A stretch of DNA of 23,954 nt, taken from a virus. Position 1 is the first letter of the stretch, and every line of letters begins with the position of its first letter. The notes below the pieces were generated by a model. That model had not been told where the DNA came from, did not search any database, and was given only the letters and a program-made list of their open reading frames with translations. Location of the stretch: the IMG/VR virus record IMGVR_UViG_3300024432_000066, positions 1 through 23,954 of that record, one strand, 5' to 3'. A program made the position numbers and the translations under genes. Below, piece by piece: positions 3,591-21,376 of the stretch.

Positions 3591-5780
3591 GTGGCATTCG
3601 ATGCTGGGGCTATTAAGGCCAGACTAACAATTGATAAAAGCCAGTGGGATAAGTCTGCAAAGCAGATTAAAACATCTCAGCAGAAATTGGCTGTCCAATC
3701 GAAGAAAACGGGCATGGCTTTCAAGGGAATGTGGAAGCAGATGGCGATAGGGATTGGTATCACAGGCGGGGTAACGATGGTGATACGGGGACTAATGCGA
3801 CAGATGGCAGATACGATTAAGGTGGGACGGAGTTTTGAGAAAGAATGGGCTAATGTAACTACGATGATGAATCTCTCCCGAACTGCAACTGATAAAATGA
3901 AGTATGAATTGCGGATGTTATCTCCCACTCTTGGTGATACTACCGAATTAGCCAAGGGAATGTATCAGGTTCTTTCTGCATCCATAGAGCCGGCAAAAGC
4001 AATTAAGTTCTTGGGCGAGGCAGCAAAGTCAGCAAAGGCTGGAGTTACAGAGACGAAAATTGCTGTTGATGCCATGACGACTGTTATAAATGCCTATGGA
4101 ATGGAAGCGGAGGCTGCCACCGAAGTTTCAGATATCATGTTTGCTACCGTCAAACGTGGAAAGTTGACTTATGAAGAATTAGCCACCTCTTTGGGAACAG
4201 TCATTCCTGTTGCTGCTACTATCGGGGTTGAATTTAGAGATGTTGCTGCTGCCGTAGCCAGTTTAACGCGCCAGGGAGTTGTTGCCTCTAAAGCCACAAT
4301 GCAGTTACGCCAGGTTATGATGTCTATCTTAAAACCATCAGCAGAGGCAGAGGAAATCACTGAAGATTTAGGGATTGCAATGGGTAAGAATGCTCTTGAA
4401 ACGATAGGATTGGCAGGATGGTTAGATATACTTAGAGAAAAGACAAAAGGCAATGCTGATATCATGACCAAAATTGTCCCGAATGTGAGAGCCTTAACTG
4501 CCGTCTTGGCATTAACAGGTAAAGCAGCAGAAGGATTTGCTTACGATCAGGAATTCATGACTGAGACGATGGGATTTACAGATGAGGCATTCAGAAAGCA
4601 GATGGAGTCAGTTGATTTCTGGATTGAAACTTTTGAAACTGCTGCGGATAAGATCAAGATTGCTTTTTATGAGGGTCTTACTGCTTCATTGAGAGAATCG
4701 ATTACATCAGCAGAAGATTTCGATGAGAAAATAACCAAGGCAACGAATGATGCCGCTAATTCTGTATCTCTTCATGTCAGCACAATGGTTGATGTTTTTG
4801 GAAAATTAAAAAAGGTAATAAATGCTCAGACATGGCCATTATTATTGTTGAGAGATATCATTACGGGAAATAAAAAGAGTACAAATGAATTAGAAAAAGC
4901 TACAAATGAATTGAGAGATGCCATGCTTCAAGCAGTACCAGAAGGGGCAATAGAAGATATTGAGGGATTCAAAGAAGCGAATGAATATTTAAAAATCGCA
5001 ATAGACGAAACACTTGAACCCATTGATATGATGACAAGGGCAACAGAAATATTTAGGGGAAAACTTGAGGAATTATATGAATTTGAAGGTATCTGGGATG
5101 CGTTGATGCCACCATCGGTAGCAATAGAAAGATGGAATGCGTTTTATGATCTGGTTGAGACTCCTGAGTTGGATTTGATATGGGAACAACAAATGGGGAA
5201 TATGGAAGAGGATACGCTAAATTTCATGGCCTCGATAATTCCTGGCATGGCCTTCATGACCAAAAAGATAACTGATGATTTTAAGAAAACAGGTGATAAT
5301 GTTAAATTGAGCATGTCAGATATGGCGATGACAGCAGGGACTATCTTAACTGCCCTGGCTGGAAAGAGCAAAGGTCTGGCTATCGCAGGAGCAATTATCA
5401 GCACATATGCTGCAGCGGCAAAGACTTTGCAAACATATGGGATGCCTCTTGCGATTCCTTTCATAGCTATGGCAATTGCAGCAGGGTTAAAACAGGTTTC
5501 GATGATTAAAGCACAAGCTATCCCTTCGGCAGCAGAAGGGGGTTGGATTCCAAAACCAGCACTTATTGAAGCGGGACATGGCCCAGGGGGTGAGGTTATC
5601 GTACCCTTTGATAGAGCTCCAATCGGAGGGATGGGCGCAACAGTGAGTTTCAACTTCTATGCTCCCATCATATCCACGACAGGATTATCGGATAAAGATG
5701 TGGATGAAGTGACTGAATATTTCTTTGATCGAATGGACAGCGAAGCAAAAAGAAGGGGGTATTCGATAAATGGCTCTTGA
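3591..5780 (+). CDS. Phage tail tape measure protein, TP901-like
   Basis: A 729 aa protein starting at GTG with AGAGGA 5 bases upstream. The N-terminus is helical and basic (KSQWDKSAKQIKTSQQK). About residues 95-300 match the TP901 core: YELATSLGTVIPVAA-like and AAVASLTRQGVVASKA motifs, with a WANVTTMM region before it. Residues about 575-640 are hydrophobic, with Ala/Ile-rich segments that could insert into the membrane. The C-terminus has the EGGWIPKPALIEAGHGPGGE pattern common in tape measures. By the usual rule of about 0.15 nm per residue it implies a tail of roughly 100 nm (inference). Confidence 0.93.
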   Translation: MAFDAGAIKARLTIDKSQWDKSAKQIKTSQQKLAVQSKKTGMAFKGMWKQMAIGIGITGGVTMVIRGLMRQMADTIKVGRSFEKEWANVTTMMNLSRTATDKMKYELRMLSPTLGDTTELAKGMYQVLSASIEPAKAIKFLGEAAKSAKAGVTETKIAVDAMTTVINAYGMEAEAATEVSDIMFATVKRGKLTYEELATSLGTVIPVAATIGVEFRDVAAAVASLTRQGVVASKATMQLRQVMMSILKPSAEAEEITEDLGIAMGKNALETIGLAGWLDILREKTKGNADIMTKIVPNVRALTAVLALTGKAAEGFAYDQEFMTETMGFTDEAFRKQMESVDFWIETFETAADKIKIAFYEGLTASLRESITSAEDFDEKITKATNDAANSVSLHVSTMVDVFGKLKKVINAQTWPLLLLRDIITGNKKSTNELEKATNELRDAMLQAVPEGAIEDIEGFKEANEYLKIAIDETLEPIDMMTRATEIFRGKLEELYEFEGIWDALMPPSVAIERWNAFYDLVETPELDLIWEQQMGNMEEDTLNFMASIIPGMAFMTKKITDDFKKTGDNVKLSMSDMAMTAGTILTALAGKSKGLAIAGAIISTYAAAAKTLQTYGMPLAIPFIAMAIAAGLKQVSMIKAQAIPSAAEGGWIPKPALIEAGHGPGGEVIVPFDRAPIGGMGATVSFNFYAPIISTTGLSDKDVDEVTEYFFDRMDSEAKRRGYSINGS

Positions 5781-11561: not shown

Positions 11562-11590
11562 TTGACACGACAAAGTCTAGGGTGTATATT
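11562..11590 (+). promoter_or_regulatory. Sigma70-type promoter of the early operon
   Basis: TTGACA (11562-11567), a 17-base spacer, then TATATT (11585-11590). It points rightward into the early genes, 44 bases before the first start codon, and lies just past the leftward lipoprotein gene. This is the first good promoter I see in the window and probably drives the operon that begins at 11635. Confidence 0.85.
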
Positions 11591-11611
11591 TATGTACATA
11601 TAATGTGCATA
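11591..11611 (+). promoter_or_regulatory. Operator-like paired sites overlapping the early promoter start
   Basis: TATGTACATA (11591-11600) is a perfect 10-base palindrome. A near copy, ATGTGCATA (11603-11611), follows 11 bases after ATGTACATA (11592), about one helical turn. They sit directly after the -10 box, where a repressor would block initiation. No repressor gene is visible in the window to assign to them. Confidence 0.5.
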
Positions 11612-11634
11612 GAGAGAAAAAGGAGACTTGAATA

Positions 11635-11814
11635 ATGGCAGAATACGAGGAGAGGCCTTGTAAGGTCTGTAAGCAAATGTATGTACCCAAAGTAGAATGG
11701 CAGAAATATTGCTCTGATGAGTGTCATGATGAACATTGGAAAGAAGTATATAGGGAGAAGGCTGCTGTTGAGAAGAGGTTAGATAGGGTAGAAAAGGAAT
11801 TGGGGATAAAATAA
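11635..11814 (+). CDS. Small zinc-finger-like protein, 59 aa
   Basis: First gene of the early operon. AAAAGGAG lies 10 bases before the ATG. The protein has CKVC, then YCSDEC, an arrangement (CxxC...CxxxC) typical of short treble-clef or FCS-like zinc modules, followed by a helical charged tail (YREKAAVEKRLDRVEKEL). It may bind nucleic acid or protein. Its TAA overlaps the ATG of the HNH gene (TAATG). The function is not known. Confidence 0.75.
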   Translation: MAEYEERPCKVCKQMYVPKVEWQKYCSDECHDEHWKEVYREKAAVEKRLDRVEKELGIK

Positions 11815-12224
11815 TGTTGGGAGAAGTTTGTGTCCGCTGTGGAAATCCCCATAATAGAAAAACCCCAAAATTAAAGAATTTATGGCATTCTGGAGGGAAT
11901 TGGAGATACTATTGCGATAATTGTAAAAATGATAATGGACTTGAAATTGGTGAGAAAAGAAATAAAGATGGATATATTTCAATTTGGAATGGAAAAAAAT
12001 GGCAATTTGAACATCGATTTATTTTTGAGAAATATCTTGGAAGAAAACTTTTAAAGGGAGAAATTATTCACCATAGAAATGGAAAAAGAAATGATAATCG
12101 TCTTGAGAATCTTCAATTACTTACAATCAAAACTCATTCATGTGGAATTGAAACCAAGTATTCAGAAGATATCTGTAGATTATTATATAGAATTAAAACC
12201 ATTGAAAATAAGGAGGCAAGATAA
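11814..12224 (+). CDS. HNH homing endonuclease with N-terminal zinc site
   Basis: A 136 aa protein. Its C-terminal half has EHRFIFEKYLGRKL, then EIIHHRNGKRNDNRLENL, the H-H-N-type beta-beta-alpha-metal nuclease core; the His pair and Asn provide the catalytic/metal site. The N-terminus has CVRC and CDNC, possibly a structural zinc site. The start is shared with the preceding stop (TAATG) and has a plausible SD (TTGGGGA) upstream. The gene looks more A+T-rich than its neighbours, and its placement between two small genes fits a freestanding mobile endonuclease. Confidence 0.85.
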   Translation: MLGEVCVRCGNPHNRKTPKLKNLWHSGGNWRYYCDNCKNDNGLEIGEKRNKDGYISIWNGKKWQFEHRFIFEKYLGRKLLKGEIIHHRNGKRNDNRLENLQLLTIKTHSCGIETKYSEDICRLLYRIKTIENKEAR

Positions 12225-12329
12225 ATGCTTATATTAATTGGAATATTTGGATTATTTCTACTGTTGATGATTTGTGTTTATTTAGGAAGATGTGCATATT
12301 ATCTCAAACTTATCTATAAAAAGAATTAA
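12225..12329 (+). CDS. Single-pass membrane microprotein, 34 aa
   Basis: AAGGAGG precedes the ATG by 8 bases. The product has one hydrophobic helix (ILIGIFGLFLLLMICVYLG) and a short basic end (YKKN), so it likely has its C-terminus in the cytoplasm. It is too small for domain recognition. Another membrane microprotein follows, but neither has features that would name a holin or a superinfection-exclusion protein. Confidence 0.6.
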   Translation: MLILIGIFGLFLLLMICVYLGRCAYYLKLIYKKN

Positions 12330-12351
12330 CTATTTTCAACGGGAGGCTTAA

Positions 12352-12495
12352 ATGACATTACTTCAAATCTTCTATAATTTCTTCATCATTTTTTATGTGG
12401 TATCAGGTCTTGTTACTGGCATTTATATCTTGGTGATGTTTTTCAACCTTTGCCATGATGTAAGTGAACTAAGAAATAAGTTAGTCAAAAATTAA
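12352..12495 (+). CDS. Small membrane protein, 47 aa
   Basis: The ATG lies 7 bases after GGGAGG. The sequence has one or two strongly hydrophobic stretches (FFIIFYVVSGLVTG, IYILVMFF) and a soluble tail (DVSELRNKLVKN). It forms a pair with the 34 aa membrane protein upstream. Function unknown; an early membrane protein could act in exclusion, but this is not shown. Confidence 0.6.
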   Translation: MTLLQIFYNFFIIFYVVSGLVTGIYILVMFFNLCHDVSELRNKLVKN

Positions 12496-12518
12496 ACTAT
12501 TCTCATAGGAGGGGAATT

Positions 12519-12809
12519 ATGGATGACTTAATTTATGCAGATTATAAAGCTGAAGAAATCATCAAAAAGAAATATCCAACTATTAAAATTGAAGATGCAA
12601 GTGATGAAATACATCGTGAAAGATTTGGGGTTCAATTTAATGAGGATGAGTACAATGAGCATGAATACTTAAAGTTTCTCCTTGAATCAGGACTCTTCCA
12701 AGTTTCATTACAATTTCAAATAATGTCGAAAATAAAAGAAGATGTGCCTAAAATAAGCAAGGCATTAGAAGAATTAAAAAAAGAAAAGCCTGAGTTATTC
12801 AAAAAATAA
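12519..12809 (+). CDS. Hypothetical acidic protein, 96 aa
   Basis: Start at ATG behind AGGAGGGG. It is rich in Glu and Lys and helical, with an NEDEYNEHEYLKFLLESG segment in the middle and a Lys-rich end. There is no Cys, membrane segment or known motif. It is probably a small early-region protein. The function is unknown. Confidence 0.72.
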   Translation: MDDLIYADYKAEEIIKKKYPTIKIEDASDEIHRERFGVQFNEDEYNEHEYLKFLLESGLFQVSLQFQIMSKIKEDVPKISKALEELKKEKPELFKK

Positions 12810-14882: not shown

Positions 14883-15463
14883 GCTTTTTAGGTAGGCATC
14901 ATTCAGAAGAATCTAAACAAAAAATGAGAAAAGCATCTGAAGGTAAAAATAATCCAATGTATGGAGTTAGCATAAAAGGCAAAAATCATCCAATGTGGGG
15001 TAGGCGTCATTCTAAAGAAGCAAGAAAGAAAATGAAAGAAGCAGCTAAAGGAAGAAAAAAAGTAAGTGAAGAAACAAAAAGAAAGATGAGCGAAGCTCAA
15101 AAAGGTGAGAAAAGCGCATGGTGGGGTAAACATCATTCAGAAAAGACAAAACGAAAATTGAGTGAATCAAAAAAGGGGAAAAATAATCCAAAATGGAAAG
15201 GTGGAATCACGAAAGTACGTGGATATGTTTTTATTTTGAAGCCTGAACATCCAACTAGTATTGGTATCGGATATGTGAAAAGGGCTCGTTTGGTAGCTGA
15301 GAAAAAATTAGGCAGATATCTATATCCAGGTGAAATAACCCACCACAAAAATGGCATCAAAGATGATGATAGGGCTGAGAATATCAAGGTAATGACAAGA
15401 GGAGAACACACATCTTTCCATCATGGAAACAGAGGAAAGCATCATGAGTTACAACCAGTTTGA
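14879..15463 (+). CDS. NUMOD3 / HNH homing endonuclease
   Basis: A 194 aa protein. The N-terminal half has at least three NUMOD3-type DNA-binding repeats, each with H(S)EE(T/S)KxKM followed by Gly-Lys-Asn-(H/N)P text and Trp-Gly-(R/K)xH (about residues 1-105). The C-terminal half is an HNH nuclease (RLVAEKKLGRYL, EITHHKNGIKDDDRAENIK) with the catalytic His pair. This is the classic layout of freestanding phage HNH endonucleases. It starts with an ATGA overlap with the annealing protein and runs 20 bases into the next gene, as expected of a neat intergenic insertion. Confidence 0.93.
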   Translation: MSFLGRHHSEESKQKMRKASEGKNNPMYGVSIKGKNHPMWGRRHSKEARKKMKEAAKGRKKVSEETKRKMSEAQKGEKSAWWGKHHSEKTKRKLSESKKGKNNPKWKGGITKVRGYVFILKPEHPTSIGIGYVKRARLVAEKKLGRYLYPGEITHHKNGIKDDDRAENIKVMTRGEHTSFHHGNRGKHHELQPV

Positions 15464-15710: not shown

Positions 15711-16340
15711 ATGACAGATTTAGAACAACTAAAAAAGGATGCTCTTGGTTTTCCTGAGAGAGCAAAGAGAATGATTGTTCACAATGCCACAACTCTTACG
15801 ATTGCTAACGAATTTATCAGAGAAGTAAAAGGATTGATAAAGGCTGTATCTGATTCATATGATCCTATTATTCGCCATGCACAAGCAGAGAAGAAAAAAT
15901 ATATCAATCCTTTAAGAGAATCCGAGCAGACAGCCAAAATACACGTTGGTGCTTATCTGACGTTACAAGCTGAAATCAGGAGAAAGGCCGAAGAGAAAGT
16001 GAGGAAAGAAGAGGAGGACCGACAGAAGAAAGAGGATAAGATTCTAGCTGAGGCCAAGATACTCAAGGATTCAGGAAAAGAAAATGAGGCTGCTTCACTT
16101 GTGGAAGAGGTCCCACTTCCTGCACAAATAGAGATCCCACCAGAACCAGAAGCAGAAGGATTGAGCATGAGGCAGGTTGTCGATACAGAACGAATCAACA
16201 TGATAGTCAAGCAACTCGGAAGGCAAACCAGGATACCGGGAATCAGGGTCTATCCGGTGTGGAAATGGGATATCACTAACAGGGAATTAATCCCCAAAGA
16301 GTATTATAAAACAAGTGTCGCTTCTCGGAAGGAGGGTTAA
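15711..16340 (+). CDS. Phage coiled-coil protein of the recombination region, 209 aa
   Basis: AAGGAGG precedes the ATG. Residues about 60-140 form a long charged helix (EIRRKAEEKVRKEEED, KILAEAKILKDSG), a likely coiled coil. The C-terminal part (RTRIP-like, then YPVWKWDITNRELIPKEYYK) shows the W-x-(I)-T-(D/N)-x-x-x-I-P-x-x-Y pattern I associate with phage proteins encoded beside annealing or ssDNA-binding genes. It lies three genes downstream of the Rad52-like protein. The exact function is unknown, but a recombination accessory role is plausible. Confidence 0.72.
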   Translation: MTDLEQLKKDALGFPERAKRMIVHNATTLTIANEFIREVKGLIKAVSDSYDPIIRHAQAEKKKYINPLRESEQTAKIHVGAYLTLQAEIRRKAEEKVRKEEEDRQKKEDKILAEAKILKDSGKENEAASLVEEVPLPAQIEIPPEPEAEGLSMRQVVDTERINMIVKQLGRQTRIPGIRVYPVWKWDITNRELIPKEYYKTSVASRKEG

Positions 16341-16600: not shown

Positions 16601-16719
16601 AAGGAAGTCCAGAGCCTTTGTACAAAATGATAGGCTGGGAGGGCGTGAGCCATGAGCTTTAATTGCTCAAGATATGGCTGTCCTCCCCTTCCTTTGAGCG
16701 TTCATCTCGCATGAGCGTT
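16601..16719 (+). promoter_or_regulatory. Structured RNA leader: three-way junction plus SD-proximal hairpin
   Basis: Three nested stems can form. P1 is AAGGAAG (16601-16607) with CTTCCTT (16688-16694). P2 is AGCCT (16613-16617) with AGGCT (16632-16636). P3 is GGGAGG (16637-16642) with CCTCCC (16682-16687), extended by AGCCAT (16648-16653) / ATGGCT (16674-16679) and GAGC (16654-16657) / GCTC (16665-16668). P2, P3 and P1 abut with no unpaired base between P2-P3 and P3-P1. A further hairpin, AGCGTTCAT / ATGAGCGTT (16697-16705 / 16711-16719), ends just before the SD of the 16734 gene. No good ORF fills the gap. Confidence 0.65.
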
Positions 16720-16733
16720 AAAAGGAGGTAATT

Positions 16734-17024
16734 ATGAGTAAATATTGCGATTTTTTCACAAAACGAAAACGAAGGTGTTATCCAATAGAGATTATTAATA
16801 AAGAGGAGAAACCTACTGGCGAATTTATTTGTATGTATTGTCATAAATCTGTCGAGGTTGCAATAGCAGCAAAGAGGATGAAAGATGTAATTGAAGATGC
16901 GAAGGGAGATAAAAATTATCCCATCCCCAAATGCTCTCATAAAAAGACAGTCGCAATCAATGAGGAGGGCCATGCCGGAGTCTACTGTGTCGATTGCGGC
17001 GAGCAATTAGAGAGGGAATGTTAG
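16734..17024 (+). CDS. Zinc-ribbon-like protein, 96 aa
   Basis: AAAAGGAGG lies just before the ATG, immediately after the hairpin in the leader. The protein has two Cys pairs, CMYC in the middle and CVDC near the end, with a further Cys-His near KCSHKK; this spacing fits one or two zinc ribbons. The middle (VAIAAKRMKDVIEDA) is helical. Such small phage zinc proteins often bind nucleic acid or RNA polymerase, but the target is not evident. It is the first of three consecutive Cys-rich genes. Confidence 0.7.
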   Translation: MSKYCDFFTKRKRRCYPIEIINKEEKPTGEFICMYCHKSVEVAIAAKRMKDVIEDAKGDKNYPIPKCSHKKTVAINEEGHAGVYCVDCGEQLEREC

Positions 17025-17035
17025 GGGAGGATTGA

Positions 17036-17230
17036 ATGTTTTGTATGGGATGTCAAAAAGATTTATCACAATGTACCTGTCCTGATTTAGAGGAGAGGCT
17101 TGATAACACAGTTTTAAAAGGAAGGTTTGCTTATAGACGATGCAAGAAATGCAAGAAGCATTATGCACGATGTAAGTGCAACCTTCCAGAATGGGAAATA
17201 AGAGATCAACCAAAAGACATGGGAAATTAG
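17036..17230 (+). CDS. Cys-rich protein with two CxxC...CxC units, 64 aa
   Basis: A GGGGAGG precedes the ATG. Two similar Cys clusters are visible: CMGCQKDLSQCTC (residues 3-15) and CKKCKKHYARCKC (about 36-48). Each has CxxC, six residues, then CxC, so each could hold one zinc. The second is followed by NLPEW. The duplication suggests an internal repeat. It may be a small nucleic-acid- or protein-binding factor; the family is not recognised. Confidence 0.7.
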   Translation: MFCMGCQKDLSQCTCPDLEERLDNTVLKGRFAYRRCKKCKKHYARCKCNLPEWEIRDQPKDMGN

Positions 17231-17249
17231 GTGTCGCATAATAGTCATT
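17231..17249 (+). repeat. Start-associated repeat, copy 1 (5' part only)
   Basis: GTGTCGCATAATAGTCATT begins right after the stop of the preceding gene and 44 bases before the 17293 gene. It is identical over 19 bases to the first part of copy 2. A separate small hairpin (ACCGC 17258-17262 / GCGGT 17273-17277) lies between it and the next SD. Confidence 0.8.
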
Positions 17250-17544: not shown

Positions 17545-17578
17545 GTGTCGCATAATAGTCATTATGTCTACTAGGAGG
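17545..17578 (+). repeat. Start-associated repeat, copy 2 (full, 34 bases)
   Basis: Begins GTGTCGCATAATAGTC and ends ATTATGTCTACTAGGAGG, which supplies the SD of the 17583 gene, 4 bases before its ATG. This copy contains all parts shared by the others and serves as the reference. Confidence 0.85.
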
Positions 17579-17769: not shown

Positions 17770-17789
17770 ATTATGTCAACTAGGGGAGG
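17770..17789 (+). repeat. Start-associated repeat, 3' part only
   Basis: ATTATGTCAACTAGGGGAGG matches the last 18 bases of copy 2 with one substitution and an added G pair. It supplies the SD of the 17795 gene. The 5' part (GTGTCGCATAA) is missing. Confidence 0.7.
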
Positions 17790-17794
17790 TGAAA

Positions 17795-18001
17795 ATGACT
17801 GAAGAAGAAAAACGAGTCTTAGATTGTGTAAAAAAGTGGTTGCAGGTTAAAGCAACCGAGATGGAAAAACGAGGCGAAGATCCCACTAAATACAATCTTT
17901 ATCAGTTGCCTGCTGATATTGACCATTCATGGCTTCTTGAAAGATTGTTAAAAGGAGAAGAACCCATGCCACCAGCTCCACCTGATAAACGTGTCGCATA
18001 A
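17795..18001 (+). CDS. Hypothetical acidic protein, 68 aa
   Basis: The ATG follows GGGGAGG by about 6 bases; a GTG at 17789 would lie inside the SD and is not preferred. The protein begins MTEEEKRVLDCVKKW, is charged and helical, and ends in a Pro-rich tail (PMPPAPPDKRVA). Its last codons and stop (GTCGCATAA) come from the next copy of the repeat, so the repeat reaches into the reading frame. Function unknown. Confidence 0.65.
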   Translation: MTEEEKRVLDCVKKWLQVKATEMEKRGEDPTKYNLYQLPADIDHSWLLERLLKGEEPMPPAPPDKRVA

Positions 18002-18020
18002 CATTATGTCTACGAGGAGG
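17991..18020 (+). repeat. Start-associated repeat, copy 3 (4-base deletion)
   Basis: Starts GTGTCGCATAA and ends CATTATGTCTACGAGGAGG; relative to copy 2 it lacks TAGT in the middle. It overlaps the end of the 17795 gene and supplies the SD of the 18026 gene. Confidence 0.8.
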
Positions 18021-18184: not shown

Positions 18185-18562
18185 ATGAGCAAGTTAAGTA
18201 AAGAGGAGCTTTTGGATGAATTTATAAATGCCTATGGGCATCATCCATCTTCCATTAAGAATGAACAAGCCTACCAGCAAATAAAAGAGATGATACAGAA
18301 GCCAGAAGTCACTGAGGAGTTTATAAAGAAATGGGCAGAGATAATGTGTAATTTTCGTTCTGCTCCAAAGGTATTTGAAGATTATAAGTTACCCGTAAAG
18401 ACCATGCTCAAAGAGGCGGGCTATGAGGCGGTAAAATCTGTAACCGAGGAGTGGATTGAAGAGAAGGTGAAGAATTTATATGAAGAAAGCAAAGCGGGGA
18501 GTTGCTCGGTGAAGTCTTTTTGTAATTTCTTCATCCGCAAACTCGTTGAGGAGATAAAATGA
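18185..18562 (+). CDS. Hypothetical helical protein, 125 aa
   Basis: GGAGGAG, about 5 bases before the ATG, is inside the end of the preceding gene. The protein is all-helical and charged (EQAYQQIKEMIQK, EEWIEEKVKNLYEE), with a C-terminal Cys pair region (GSCSVKSFCNFF). It is the last gene of the first early operon and is followed by a terminator-like structure. No family recognised. Confidence 0.7.
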   Translation: MSKLSKEELLDEFINAYGHHPSSIKNEQAYQQIKEMIQKPEVTEEFIKKWAEIMCNFRSAPKVFEDYKLPVKTMLKEAGYEAVKSVTEEWIEEKVKNLYEESKAGSCSVKSFCNFFIRKLVEEIK

Positions 18563-18628
18563 CCGATCTGGCTCCTGCCTACCCCTCCTTCTTTTCCCCC
18601 GAAACAGGGTGGGGGCCGGGTCTTTTCT
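18561..18628 (+). terminator. Probable intrinsic terminator of the early operon
   Basis: GACC (18561-18564) can pair with GGTC (18619-18622), and GGC with GCC inside it. The inner arms CCCCC (18596-18600) and GGGGG (18611-18615) form a strong hairpin. The 3' side runs into TTTTCTAT. It follows the last gene at once and precedes a new promoter. The stem is irregular, so the exact form is uncertain. Confidence 0.5.
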
Positions 18629-18630
18629 AT

Positions 18631-18659
18631 TTGACATTGAGGGGTGAATATTGTATGAT
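18631..18659 (+). promoter_or_regulatory. Sigma70-type promoter for the folded RNA and ParB-like operon
   Basis: TTGACA (18631-18636), 17-base spacer, then TATGAT (18654-18659). It is about 7 bases before the first base of the 12-bp stem at 18667, so transcription would start near 18665-18667 and include the whole folded element. Confidence 0.87.
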
Positions 18660-18665
18660 TAGAGG

Positions 18666-18781
18666 CGATGAACCAGGAAAATGCTAACAAATAACAAACG
18701 AGCCCTTGCTCTGCATCTATCATTACTTCCCACTCGGAAGATTCTGGTTCATCCCAAATGGTGCAGGCAGGGGCTTTTTTT
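18666..18781 (+). ncRNA. Candidate structured small RNA or attenuator leader
   Basis: From the promoter start the transcript can form a 12-bp closing stem: GATGAACCAGGA (18667-18678) with TTCTGGTTCATC (18742-18753), one G-U. Inside are two small hairpins: GAGC-CCTT-GCTC (18700-18711) and CTTCC-CACTC-GGAAG (18726-18740). The left part of the interior (18701-18715) can also pair with the 3' tail (18762-18775), forming a terminator that crosses the closing stem. The RNA is therefore pseudoknotted or has two exclusive folds. There is no ORF with an SD in it. It matches no riboswitch or small RNA that I recognise. Confidence 0.68.
18701..18781 (+). terminator. Intrinsic terminator just upstream of the ParB-like gene
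   Basis: AGCCCTTGCTCTGCA (18701-18715) pairs with TGCAGGCAGGGGCT (18762-18775): 14 pairs with one G-U and one bulged T. The run of seven T (18775-18781) follows directly. The loop is large (46 bases) and holds the 18726 hairpin and the right strand of the closing stem. It ends 4 bases before the SD of the next gene. Confidence 0.72.
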
Positions 18782-18796
18782 ATTAAGGAGGTTTAA

Positions 18797-19900
18797 ATGA
18801 AAGTAAAAATTTGTGATTTACAACCAAATCCATTTAGGGATTTTAAGAATTACCCAAGAGATGAAGAAAAAATCAAAATCTTAACGGAATCAGTAAGTAA
18901 GACTGGATTCTGGGATAATATCCTGGCAAGAAAAAAGAATGATAAATATGAAATAGCTTATGGCCACCATAGATATGCAGTTTTGAAAAGATTATTCAAG
19001 CCTGAAGATATAATAGATATTCCTGTAAAAGATTTGGATGATTGGACGATGATAATGATAATGATCGACGAGAATATGGAACAATACAGAACGAATCCAG
19101 CGGTGCAAAATGAAGGAGTGAAAGCAGCTTTTGAGTATCTGAAAAAACAAGTTGCCTTTAAGCAAGTTGTTCGTGCGAAAAAGTATGCCATCGTTTTTGA
19201 TGAAATTCCAATCCCTGAAAAAATTAGTTATACTCCTTTAGCAGCACAAATTGCCACACAACTTGGGGACATACGGAAAGAGAAACGAATATATACGTCA
19301 TTGCGACAATTAGAGGCTTCTGGCGAGATCGAAATTCCAAGGCCAAAAAAGCCTGCAGAAGAGGCGAAAGTAAAAGAGACTGAAGAAGCAAAAGAAGAAA
19401 CAAAAATAGAGGAAGAAGAAGAAAAAATAGAAGAAGTTAAGGTTGAATTAAGCAAATTAGCAATGAAAATTCTTGGAAGGACTTCATATGTCGATCGATT
19501 TTTTAATACATTACAACGATTGCTCAAAAAAAAGGAAATAATAATTCCAAAGAAGAATCAAATAGCAGTGGCGAAAAAACTCGTGAGCATAGCGAAATTT
19601 GATAGCGCAACAATGGCAAGAGAATTGGTTAAATCAGTTCAAAAGAAAAAAGATGATACAAAAAAAGAAATAGTGGTAGAACTTGAAGAATATTTGAGAG
19701 AAAGTAGTAATTGGGTAGACAAGCTGAATGACCGAGTAAAGAAGATGCTTGAAATTAAAGATGTATTAGATTCAGAAATTTATGATAAATCAGTCGAGAA
19801 AACTGAGTTTAAAATCAAATCAGTATTCCTTATTAGGAATCTGCAAAAACTTTTAGGAGGTAAAAATGAAGCCAGAAAACTTCCAAATGGAAGAAAGTAA
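18797..19900 (+). CDS. ParB-like nuclease/CTPase-fold protein
   Basis: A 367 aa protein with AAGGAGG before the ATG. Residues about 1-95 are a ParB/Srx-like domain: the opening KICDLQPNPFRDF, then IKILTESVSKTGFWDNILARK and GHHRYAVLKRL, the ParB box II (GxxRxxA-like). Next is a helical DNA-binding-like region (about 100-180), then a Glu/Lys linker (about 185-215) and a helical C-terminus. No ParA gene is near, so plasmid-type partition is not indicated. Phage ParB-like proteins without ParA may act in DNA binding or transcription. The start follows the terminator closely, so attenuation could control it. Confidence 0.85.
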   Translation: MKVKICDLQPNPFRDFKNYPRDEEKIKILTESVSKTGFWDNILARKKNDKYEIAYGHHRYAVLKRLFKPEDIIDIPVKDLDDWTMIMIMIDENMEQYRTNPAVQNEGVKAAFEYLKKQVAFKQVVRAKKYAIVFDEIPIPEKISYTPLAAQIATQLGDIRKEKRIYTSLRQLEASGEIEIPRPKKPAEEAKVKETEEAKEETKIEEEEEKIEEVKVELSKLAMKILGRTSYVDRFFNTLQRLLKKKEIIIPKKNQIAVAKKLVSIAKFDSATMARELVKSVQKKKDDTKKEIVVELEEYLRESSNWVDKLNDRVKKMLEIKDVLDSEIYDKSVEKTEFKIKSVFLIRNLQKLLGGKNEARKLPNGRK

Positions 19901-20425: not shown

Positions 20426-21376
20426 ATGCCTGAAAGTTATAAAGAAGATGGGCGACCAGCTCAACAATGGTATTGGGATGATTGGTTTTCTGCATTCGAT
20501 GTGCGACTTTGTAGCGTTGCAGCTCGGGGGGTATGGATTGACATGTTAGGTATTATGTATAAGGCTGAAATTCGTGGTACTTTAACCATAAATGGAAGGC
20601 AAGCTGATAGCAAAATACTGGCAAAAATAGTCGGTGAGACAATAGCAAATATAAATAAATATTTAAAGGAACTGGAAGAACAAGATGTTTTCTCTCGCCT
20701 TGAGGACAATACAATAATTTGTAGGAGAATGTTTCGTGAAAGCGGACGTAAAGATCAGATAAGTAAAATACGATCTATGGCTGGCAAAAAGGGTGCAGAA
20801 ACACGATGGCAACCAGATAGTAAAGATATAGCAAAAATGGCAGCTTCTACTTCTTCTCCTACTCCTATTTCATCTTCTTCTTCTAAAGATAATGTAGAGC
20901 TTCGAAAACAAATAATAGACTTCTTTAATAAAGCAACAAATCAAAAACGATCTTATACTTGTGATGGAACGAATAAATTAATTATGGGTAGATTAAGTGA
21001 AGGAAGAACTATAGATGATTTTAAGCACGTAATAAATACAAAATATACTCAATGGAGAAATGATGAAAAGATGAGTCAATTTATAAGACCGTCAACTCTA
21101 TTTAGGCCAGAGAATTTTGAGAATTATATGAATGAGCCTTATGAAGATCCCAGAAAGAAGATATTGAAGGTAGGAGAATCTACACATACTAGCTCAATAA
21201 AAGAGGATAATTATGCAAAAGCCCGAGCAGTAAAGATGAAACAACTCCAGGAGAAATACCAAACTGAGATCGATAAGGCGACAAAAGCACACGCTTCGGA
21301 TTGGTTAGATGAGATTGATAATAAGATCAAAGAAGAAATAGCAGAGTTTTCTCGTAATTATAAGGAGGAGAAATGA
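20426..21376 (+). CDS. Phage replication protein with Phg_2220_C-like C-terminal domain
   Basis: A 316 aa protein. The N-terminal part (FSAFDVRLCSVAARGVWIDM, IVGETIANINKYLKEL) is a winged-helix-like DNA-binding region. Residues about 160-237 (IIDFFNKATNQKRSY, LIMGRLSEGRTIDDFKHVI, KYTQWRNDEKM, RPSTLFRPENFENYMN) match the conserved phage C-terminal domain PF09524 closely. Such proteins act as initiators that load a helicase. The linker at 141-153 is Ser/Thr/Pro-rich. The SD is weak (GATG), with the start 65 bases after the preceding stop. No helicase-loader or helicase gene follows at once. Confidence 0.87.
   Translation: MPESYKEDGRPAQQWYWDDWFSAFDVRLCSVAARGVWIDMLGIMYKAEIRGTLTINGRQADSKILAKIVGETIANINKYLKELEEQDVFSRLEDNTIICRRMFRESGRKDQISKIRSMAGKKGAETRWQPDSKDIAKMAASTSSPTPISSSSSKDNVELRKQIIDFFNKATNQKRSYTCDGTNKLIMGRLSEGRTIDDFKHVINTKYTQWRNDEKMSQFIRPSTLFRPENFENYMNEPYEDPRKKILKVGESTHTSSIKEDNYAKARAVKMKQLQEKYQTEIDKATKAHASDWLDEIDNKIKEEIAEFSRNYKEEK

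Follow-up and report, generated by a model that had tools for sequence, protein, structure and literature searches.

In phage lambda, the strong promoter PR' gives rise to a short RNA, the 6S RNA, which ends at the intrinsic terminator tR', and the later genes need read-through, with antitermination by Q. The put RNAs of phage HK022 are 5'-terminal structured phage RNAs that consist of two adjacent hairpins and affect termination in cis. The structure of Q (PMC6606751) and phage-encoded small RNAs in general (PMC12197685) have been described.

We analyzed a virus record of 23,954 bases, the whole of which is referred to as the window. Its gene content includes minor head, tail, tape-measure, Rad52-like, and replication genes, and it had no near relative among the annotated phages compared. 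The layout of a predicted RNA in this window is similar to that of PR'-tR', with a promoter, a short RNA, a terminator, and genes behind. Unlike the lambda system, the RNA is shorter, contains a crossing closing stem, and heads replication-side genes; no Q-like gene or qut site was identified, and antitermination is unsupported here. It resembles put in being a 5'-terminal structured phage RNA, and cis action on termination, a feature of put, is only proposed here. Instead of two adjacent hairpins, however, it has one closing stem that is crossed by the terminator. Like the antisense RNAs c4 of P1/P7 and CI of P4, it is a short structured phage RNA that heads an operon and would be tied to premature termination, but it differs in fold and has neither an Rfam match nor a clear complementary target in the window. 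Whereas the loops of c4 and CI are complementary to the same operon, only one perfect antisense match of at least 11 nt was found in the window, 13 nt long and in an unrelated ORF. Two-state riboswitch and attenuator platforms share with it a structured 5' domain and, behind this, a terminator that directly precedes the Shine-Dalgarno sequence (SD), but its two main helices share no strand (18667-78/18742-53 and 18700-17/18760-76 are disjoint), and no ligand-binding core was recognized. As in phage small RNAs (PMC12197685), there is an own promoter, an intrinsic terminator, and a length of about 115 nt; the crossing terminator, the closing stem, and the lack of a known target set it apart. The names riboswitch, put RNA, and c4 RNA should not be applied to it.

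Neither the window nor its relatives matched Rfam 15 at the gathering threshold. At an E value of 10 or less, either copy of the RNA retrieved only implausible eukaryotic miRNA or snoRNA models or unrelated ones, well below threshold, which agrees with an earlier note on this DNA that knew of no named family with this layout and would have taken a clear match as a refutation. Judged by the available libraries, the RNA thus appears to be a new, unregistered family. In kind, it is a variation on the leader or small RNAs of phages, and what distinguishes it, as far as its predicted fold goes, is a terminator that crosses its closing stem.

Promoter, fold, and terminator of the RNA

The features of the locus are as follows.

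18185-18562, preceding ORF, ending just 5' of a terminator-like hairpin
18571..18622, + strand, terminator-like hairpin GATCTGGCTCCTGCC/GGTGGGGGCCGGGTC followed by TCTTTT; -26.5 kcal/mol, not exceptional against shuffles (z -1.8 to -1.4)
18631..18659, + strand, sigma-70-type promoter TTGACA-17-TATGAT, 11/12 match to consensus
18666..18782, + strand, predicted transcript of about 115 nt, placed by distance from the -10 box; homologue L013:2851-2962
18667..18678, + strand, 5' arm of the closing stem S1, GATGAACCAGGA
18679..18699, + strand, A-rich single-stranded segment with the conserved block ATAACAAA, from the alignment of both copies
18700..18717, + strand, 5' arm of the terminator stem S2, GAGCCCTTGCTCTGCATC, with T18710 bulged, within the S1 loop
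18726..18740, + strand, inner hairpin CTTCC-CACTC-GGAAG, from the fold and covariation in L013
18742..18753, + strand, 3' arm of S1, TTCTGGTTCATC
18760..18776, + strand, 3' arm of S2, GGTGCAGGCAGGGGCTT
18775..18781, + strand, U-tract (U7) of the terminator, from the sequence
18786-18791, + strand, SD AGGAGG, serving the ATG at 18797
18797..19900, + strand, gene of a ParB_N-domain protein, 367 aa (Pfam PF02195, E 6.7e-7; phrog_3264)
20426..21376, + strand, gene of a phage replication initiation protein, whose C-terminal 68 aa are 69% identical to the product of L013:3353-4243

All elements of the earlier note were recovered with an offset of no more than one or two bases from the positions it gave. 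The near-consensus promoter and the 12-bp closing stem that the earlier note had proposed are both there, S1 comprising 12 pairs with one G-U among them. It begins 6 to 7 nt after the promoter, and the 5' end of the transcript is predicted to lie at the stem or one base earlier. A promoter of this quality is no rarity on its own: the window has 4, where 0.86 are expected per shuffled window. Stems of the S1 class (arms 40 to 90 nt apart, 12 bp, no more than one G-U) numbered 2, compared with 0.45 per shuffle. The terminator, previously given 14 pairs (18701-18715/18762-18775), does cross the closing stem but is longer, with 17 pairs (18700-18717/18760-18776), the single bulge at T18710, and a loop of 42 nt. 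It has the G+C-rich stem and U-tract of an intrinsic terminator but not the short loop of 3 to 8 nt, and a standard terminator scan, which assumes such a loop, misses it for this reason. As had been noted, its U-run ends four bases before the SD of the gene at 18797. Of two inner hairpins claimed earlier, CTTCC/GGAAG at 18726-18740 holds up and shows covariation, whereas GAGC/GCTC at 18700-18711 is weak: its 4 pairs (3 in L013) lie inside the 5' arm of S2, and it would be transient at best.

S1 and S2 cross in the order A, B, A', B', as the earlier note had stated, with compensatory support for both helices and with zero shared nucleotides, the arrangement of an H-type pseudoknot in which both disjoint helices are conserved. 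Its alternative, a terminator that competes with the closing stem, does not hold in the sense of competition strand for strand, and only knotting or topological hindrance is possible. Since no nucleotide is shared, the predicted topology is that of a pseudoknot, not of a strand-sharing switch; simultaneous formation of S1 and S2 in one molecule is putative. Both the 5' domain (18666-18755, z = -5.66) and the terminator domain (18699-18785, z = -5.64) folded better than any of 200 shuffles. In a blind scan in 90-nt windows with steps of 20, the region reached only a rank of about 20 among 1194 (z = -3.2), as the fixed frame cuts the arms of the RNA. The conjunction of these features is unlikely, but the decisive evidence is comparative.

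A second virus with the same promoter, helices, and terminator

The only unmistakable homologue of the RNA lies at positions 2816 to 2962 of L013, a 4,390-base contig in a Candidatus Aminicenantes metagenome-assembled genome (MAG). This contig was found via the protein of a small upstream gene (window 15711-16340), not via the RNA, and the same gene led to the relatives L007 and L010. The L013 RNA sits right behind that contig's copy of the small gene, and its promoter and terminator are kept together with each of the three helices. Promoter hexamers and spacing (L013:2816-2844) are identical to those of the window, the closing stem is formed by GATGAGCCAGA/TCTGGCTCATC, and the terminator has 16 to 17 pairs plus UUUUCUUCUUUU. 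A covariance model, R1, built from the two copies scored 160.1 bits for the window and 145.8 bits for L013, values that are self-matching by construction.

Covariation, whose absence the earlier note had named as grounds for rejection, was found in the form of one double change per helix in L013: A-U to G-C in S1 (columns 19/96), U-A to C-G in the inner hairpin (columns 76/86), and A-U to G-C in S2 (columns 63/110). Three such changes exceed chance in a substitution simulation (P = 0.008), which was used instead of a shuffle control of the pair counter that is weak with two sequences (56/500). Although 13 substitutions fall at paired sites, only 1 of 32 pairs is broken (random-placement simulation, P = 0.0002), and sliding the 3' partners by 1 to 3 columns reduced pairing from 98.5% to between 33 and 50%. 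The RNA is 72% identical between the copies, compared with 60% for a neighboring phage gene; its unpaired columns are 65% identical, compared with 41.5% at the third codon positions of that gene. The indels between the copies (1, 2, and 2 nt) fall on unpaired positions or next to them and throw every reading frame out of register. Because they break the frames, the conserved object is, on this alignment, an RNA rather than a peptide.

The family is known from these two members only. None of 142 Aminicenantia genomes and 396 genomes of the phylum held a further one, and the RNA was absent from the full records of L005, L007, L008, and L010 and from the regions fetched from related Aminicenantia contigs; its absence from contig fragments says little. 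Close relatives were few or lacking in searches with the ParB-like, tail, and replication proteins. Weak DNA or model hits in genomes of Aminicenantia and others of the phylum (L015-L017 and L019-L021) were attributed to chance or to an insertion-sequence end, and three matches to the exact stem pattern in viral contigs were all chance or assembly products. Long dyads in L005 (6307-6403 and 6865-6956) resembled the design of the RNA but matched it in neither sequence nor model; one of them is part of a tandem-hairpin leader described below.

Proposed gating of transcription and the competing readings

Our tentatively preferred reading is that of a conserved phage leader RNA which gates the downstream cluster by premature termination and whose released form of about 115 nt is stable. 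RNA polymerase would start at the promoter, and the nascent 5' end would close at once into S1. The polymerase would then reach the intrinsic terminator, S2 with its U-tract, whose 5' arm would be trapped in the S1 loop, and termination would free a stable RNA with helices at both ends. Partial or regulated read-through would be the sole transcription from this promoter into the ParB-like gene, the 164-aa ORF, and the replication gene. S2, formed after S1, spans 1.5 helical turns, which it would need to wind within a closed loop that a 3' end held by RNA polymerase cannot thread, so that S1 probably hinders the terminator until it is opened; a factor that opens or stabilizes S1 would set the level of read-through. 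After release, the 3' end would be free and both helices could coexist; the loop that links them behind S1 is short (6 nt in the window, 4 nt in L013), and a few end pairs may therefore need to open.

Gating is suggested by the presence of the whole anatomy in a second virus, with compensatory changes in each helix, and by a terminator that abuts the next SD in both viruses, with the replication gene following on the same strand. Another promoter would not fit between terminator and SD. Equilibrium folding of the growing chain, modeled for both sequences, is also counted for gating: the pairing probability of S1 was 0.97 or higher once its 3' arm was out, and S2 took over only as the terminator arm reached its final bases. 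The folding program cannot represent a pseudoknot, and the hindrance by S1 is an argument, not a computation; we infer it, as we do transcription, termination, and control of read-through. A bolder version, in which the RNA is a natural topological antiterminator, S1 trapping the upstream arm of the terminator in a closed loop and topology rather than a shared strand setting termination, seems rather unlikely. If it were true, the polymerase-held 3' end would wind the terminator only after S1 opens. The crossing layout poses a testable question, namely, whether a terminator can be controlled topologically by a stem with which it has no base in common.

A free, trans-acting small RNA is nearly as likely as the gating leader and is a serious possibility. 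Such an RNA would be constitutive, carry its own terminator, be stabilized by the knot, and pair with phage or host transcripts or bind a protein, and the genes behind it would be transcribed via leaky read-through. Phage-encoded small RNAs are already an established class (PMC12197685, PMC4104026), and here a strong promoter and terminator stay together as a conserved unit in front of differing genes. The conserved unpaired blocks (AUAACAAA and UCAUU) exceed what the helices need; they would also fit a trans-acting RNA and so count against gating. On the other hand, the 13-nt antisense match, the best perfect one in the window, lies in an HNH-type ORF (15280-15292) and is near chance, and the next SD adjoins the terminator in both viruses. 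The latter is a weak sign of cis action, because phage genomes are compact. It is improbable that the conserved object is a DNA element, either a replication origin or a ParB-binding centromere site. A replication gene is nearby, the next gene in the window is ParB-like, and a 100-nt dyad precedes the ParB gene of L010, but RNA is indicated by the promoter and U-tract that frame the fold and by the G-U tolerance on one strand, and L013 has no adjacent ParB-like gene.

Two readings involve translation of the RNA, and protein-coding ones were rejected on account of the frame-shifting indels. Attenuation through a leader peptide is distinctly improbable. A mini-ORF starts 3 nt into the transcript and spans the 5' arm of S1, so that a ribosome translating it would prevent S1 from closing. 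It has an ATG and an aligned in-frame stop in both copies, with the peptides MNQENANK (window) and MSQINDN (L013). The amino acid differs, however, at 3 of 7 compared codons, no run of codons for a single amino acid is present, an SD would not fit, and short ORFs are likely to occur by chance in an A-rich context. Scarcely credible is a small protein gene running from the ATG at 18682 for 39 codons through the whole RNA and overlapping the ParB start as ATGA: the frame is open in both copies and of similar length in L013, but the indels shift it, the two peptides do not align, and substitutions preserve base pairs, not codons.

Genomic setting, Xer-type sites, and further elements

The RNA stands just before a ParB-like gene, as the earlier note had said, in the window only; in L013, the next gene is a 118-aa ORF unrelated to ParB. 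The window order 3' of the RNA is the ParB-like gene, the 164-aa ORF, and the replication gene, and in L013 the replication gene lies two genes downstream of the RNA on the same strand. Each copy stands at the head of a gene cluster that runs up to the gene of the replication protein. Since the next gene differs and the replication gene is shared, the RNA is, by gene order, best seen as part of the head of the replication-side genes and not as tied to ParB. The viruses in which promoter, fold, and terminator form one conserved unit are linked to a bacterial class that is uncultured. On the 5' side, the hairpin at 18571..18622 is outside the conserved RNA and probably terminates the upstream operon. 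Over 15 nt, its arm GCTCCTGCCTACCCC (18571-18585) shows 80% complementarity to the 3' arm of S2 (18760-18774), and for this reason read-through transcripts of the upstream operon could pair with that arm.

At least four related viruses carry dif-like XerC/XerD sites of the form GTGTCGCATAA-N6-TTATGTCAACT (11-6-11, 28 bp) immediately before successive small ORFs, all in the same direction. These sites include the following.

Window: 17545-17572, exact; near 17231-17249, 17771-17782, and 17991-18016, degenerate
L007: 5895-7255
L010: about 12100-12350 and 16820-17045
L030, a virus-related contig in an Aminicenantia assembly: about 3963-3995 and 4224-4250

The 11-6-11 layout is that of dif, and the E. 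coli dif string, GCGCATAATGTATATTATGTTAAAT, is given in papers on dif, for example PMC3025954. The 28-bp pattern occurred exactly once in each of 24 of the 142 Aminicenantia genomes, as expected for a host dif site, and a reversed control pattern had 0 matches. Other Aminicenantia assemblies hold contigs with close relatives of the small gene at window 15711-16340. Because of these contigs, the dif-like pattern, and the placement of L013 in an Aminicenantes MAG, an Aminicenantia host is likely for the window virus. The array looks like a series of phage gene cassettes delimited by Xer sites and in this recalls the pdif modules found on Acinetobacter plasmids (PMC9455709). It may exceed the RNA in novelty.

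A conserved tandem-hairpin leader was seen in the window (16637-16730), L010 (12019-12092), and L005 (6258-6406). It consists of a GGGAGGGC..GYCCTCCC hairpin followed immediately by CTTCCTTTGAG-variable stem-TTRAAAGGAGG, whose 3' strand includes a small ORF's SD. Sequence varies between the distal stems, but their pairing is kept (z -4.8, -4.3, and -4.8), and the leader is probably another unregistered, SD-hiding RNA motif. The L010 dyad (12426-12632) has 100-nt arms that are 96% complementary around a 7-nt center, stands 30 nt before a full-length ParB gene, and is unrelated in sequence to the RNA; it is possibly an origin, a centromere site, or an assembly artifact. In L030 (2600-3900), a putative IS110-type transposase gene, called by eye, is preceded by a GGGAGGACC/GGTCCTCCCC hairpin region. 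At 11562-11670 of the window, a second near-consensus promoter, TTGACA-17-TATATT, is followed at once by an unusually well-folding stretch (z about -5.3) that precedes a 59-aa cysteine-rich ORF. The strongest folding signal of the window (17101-17190, z about -8.7 with 25 shuffles) lies within a 64-aa Cys-rich ORF (17036-17230).
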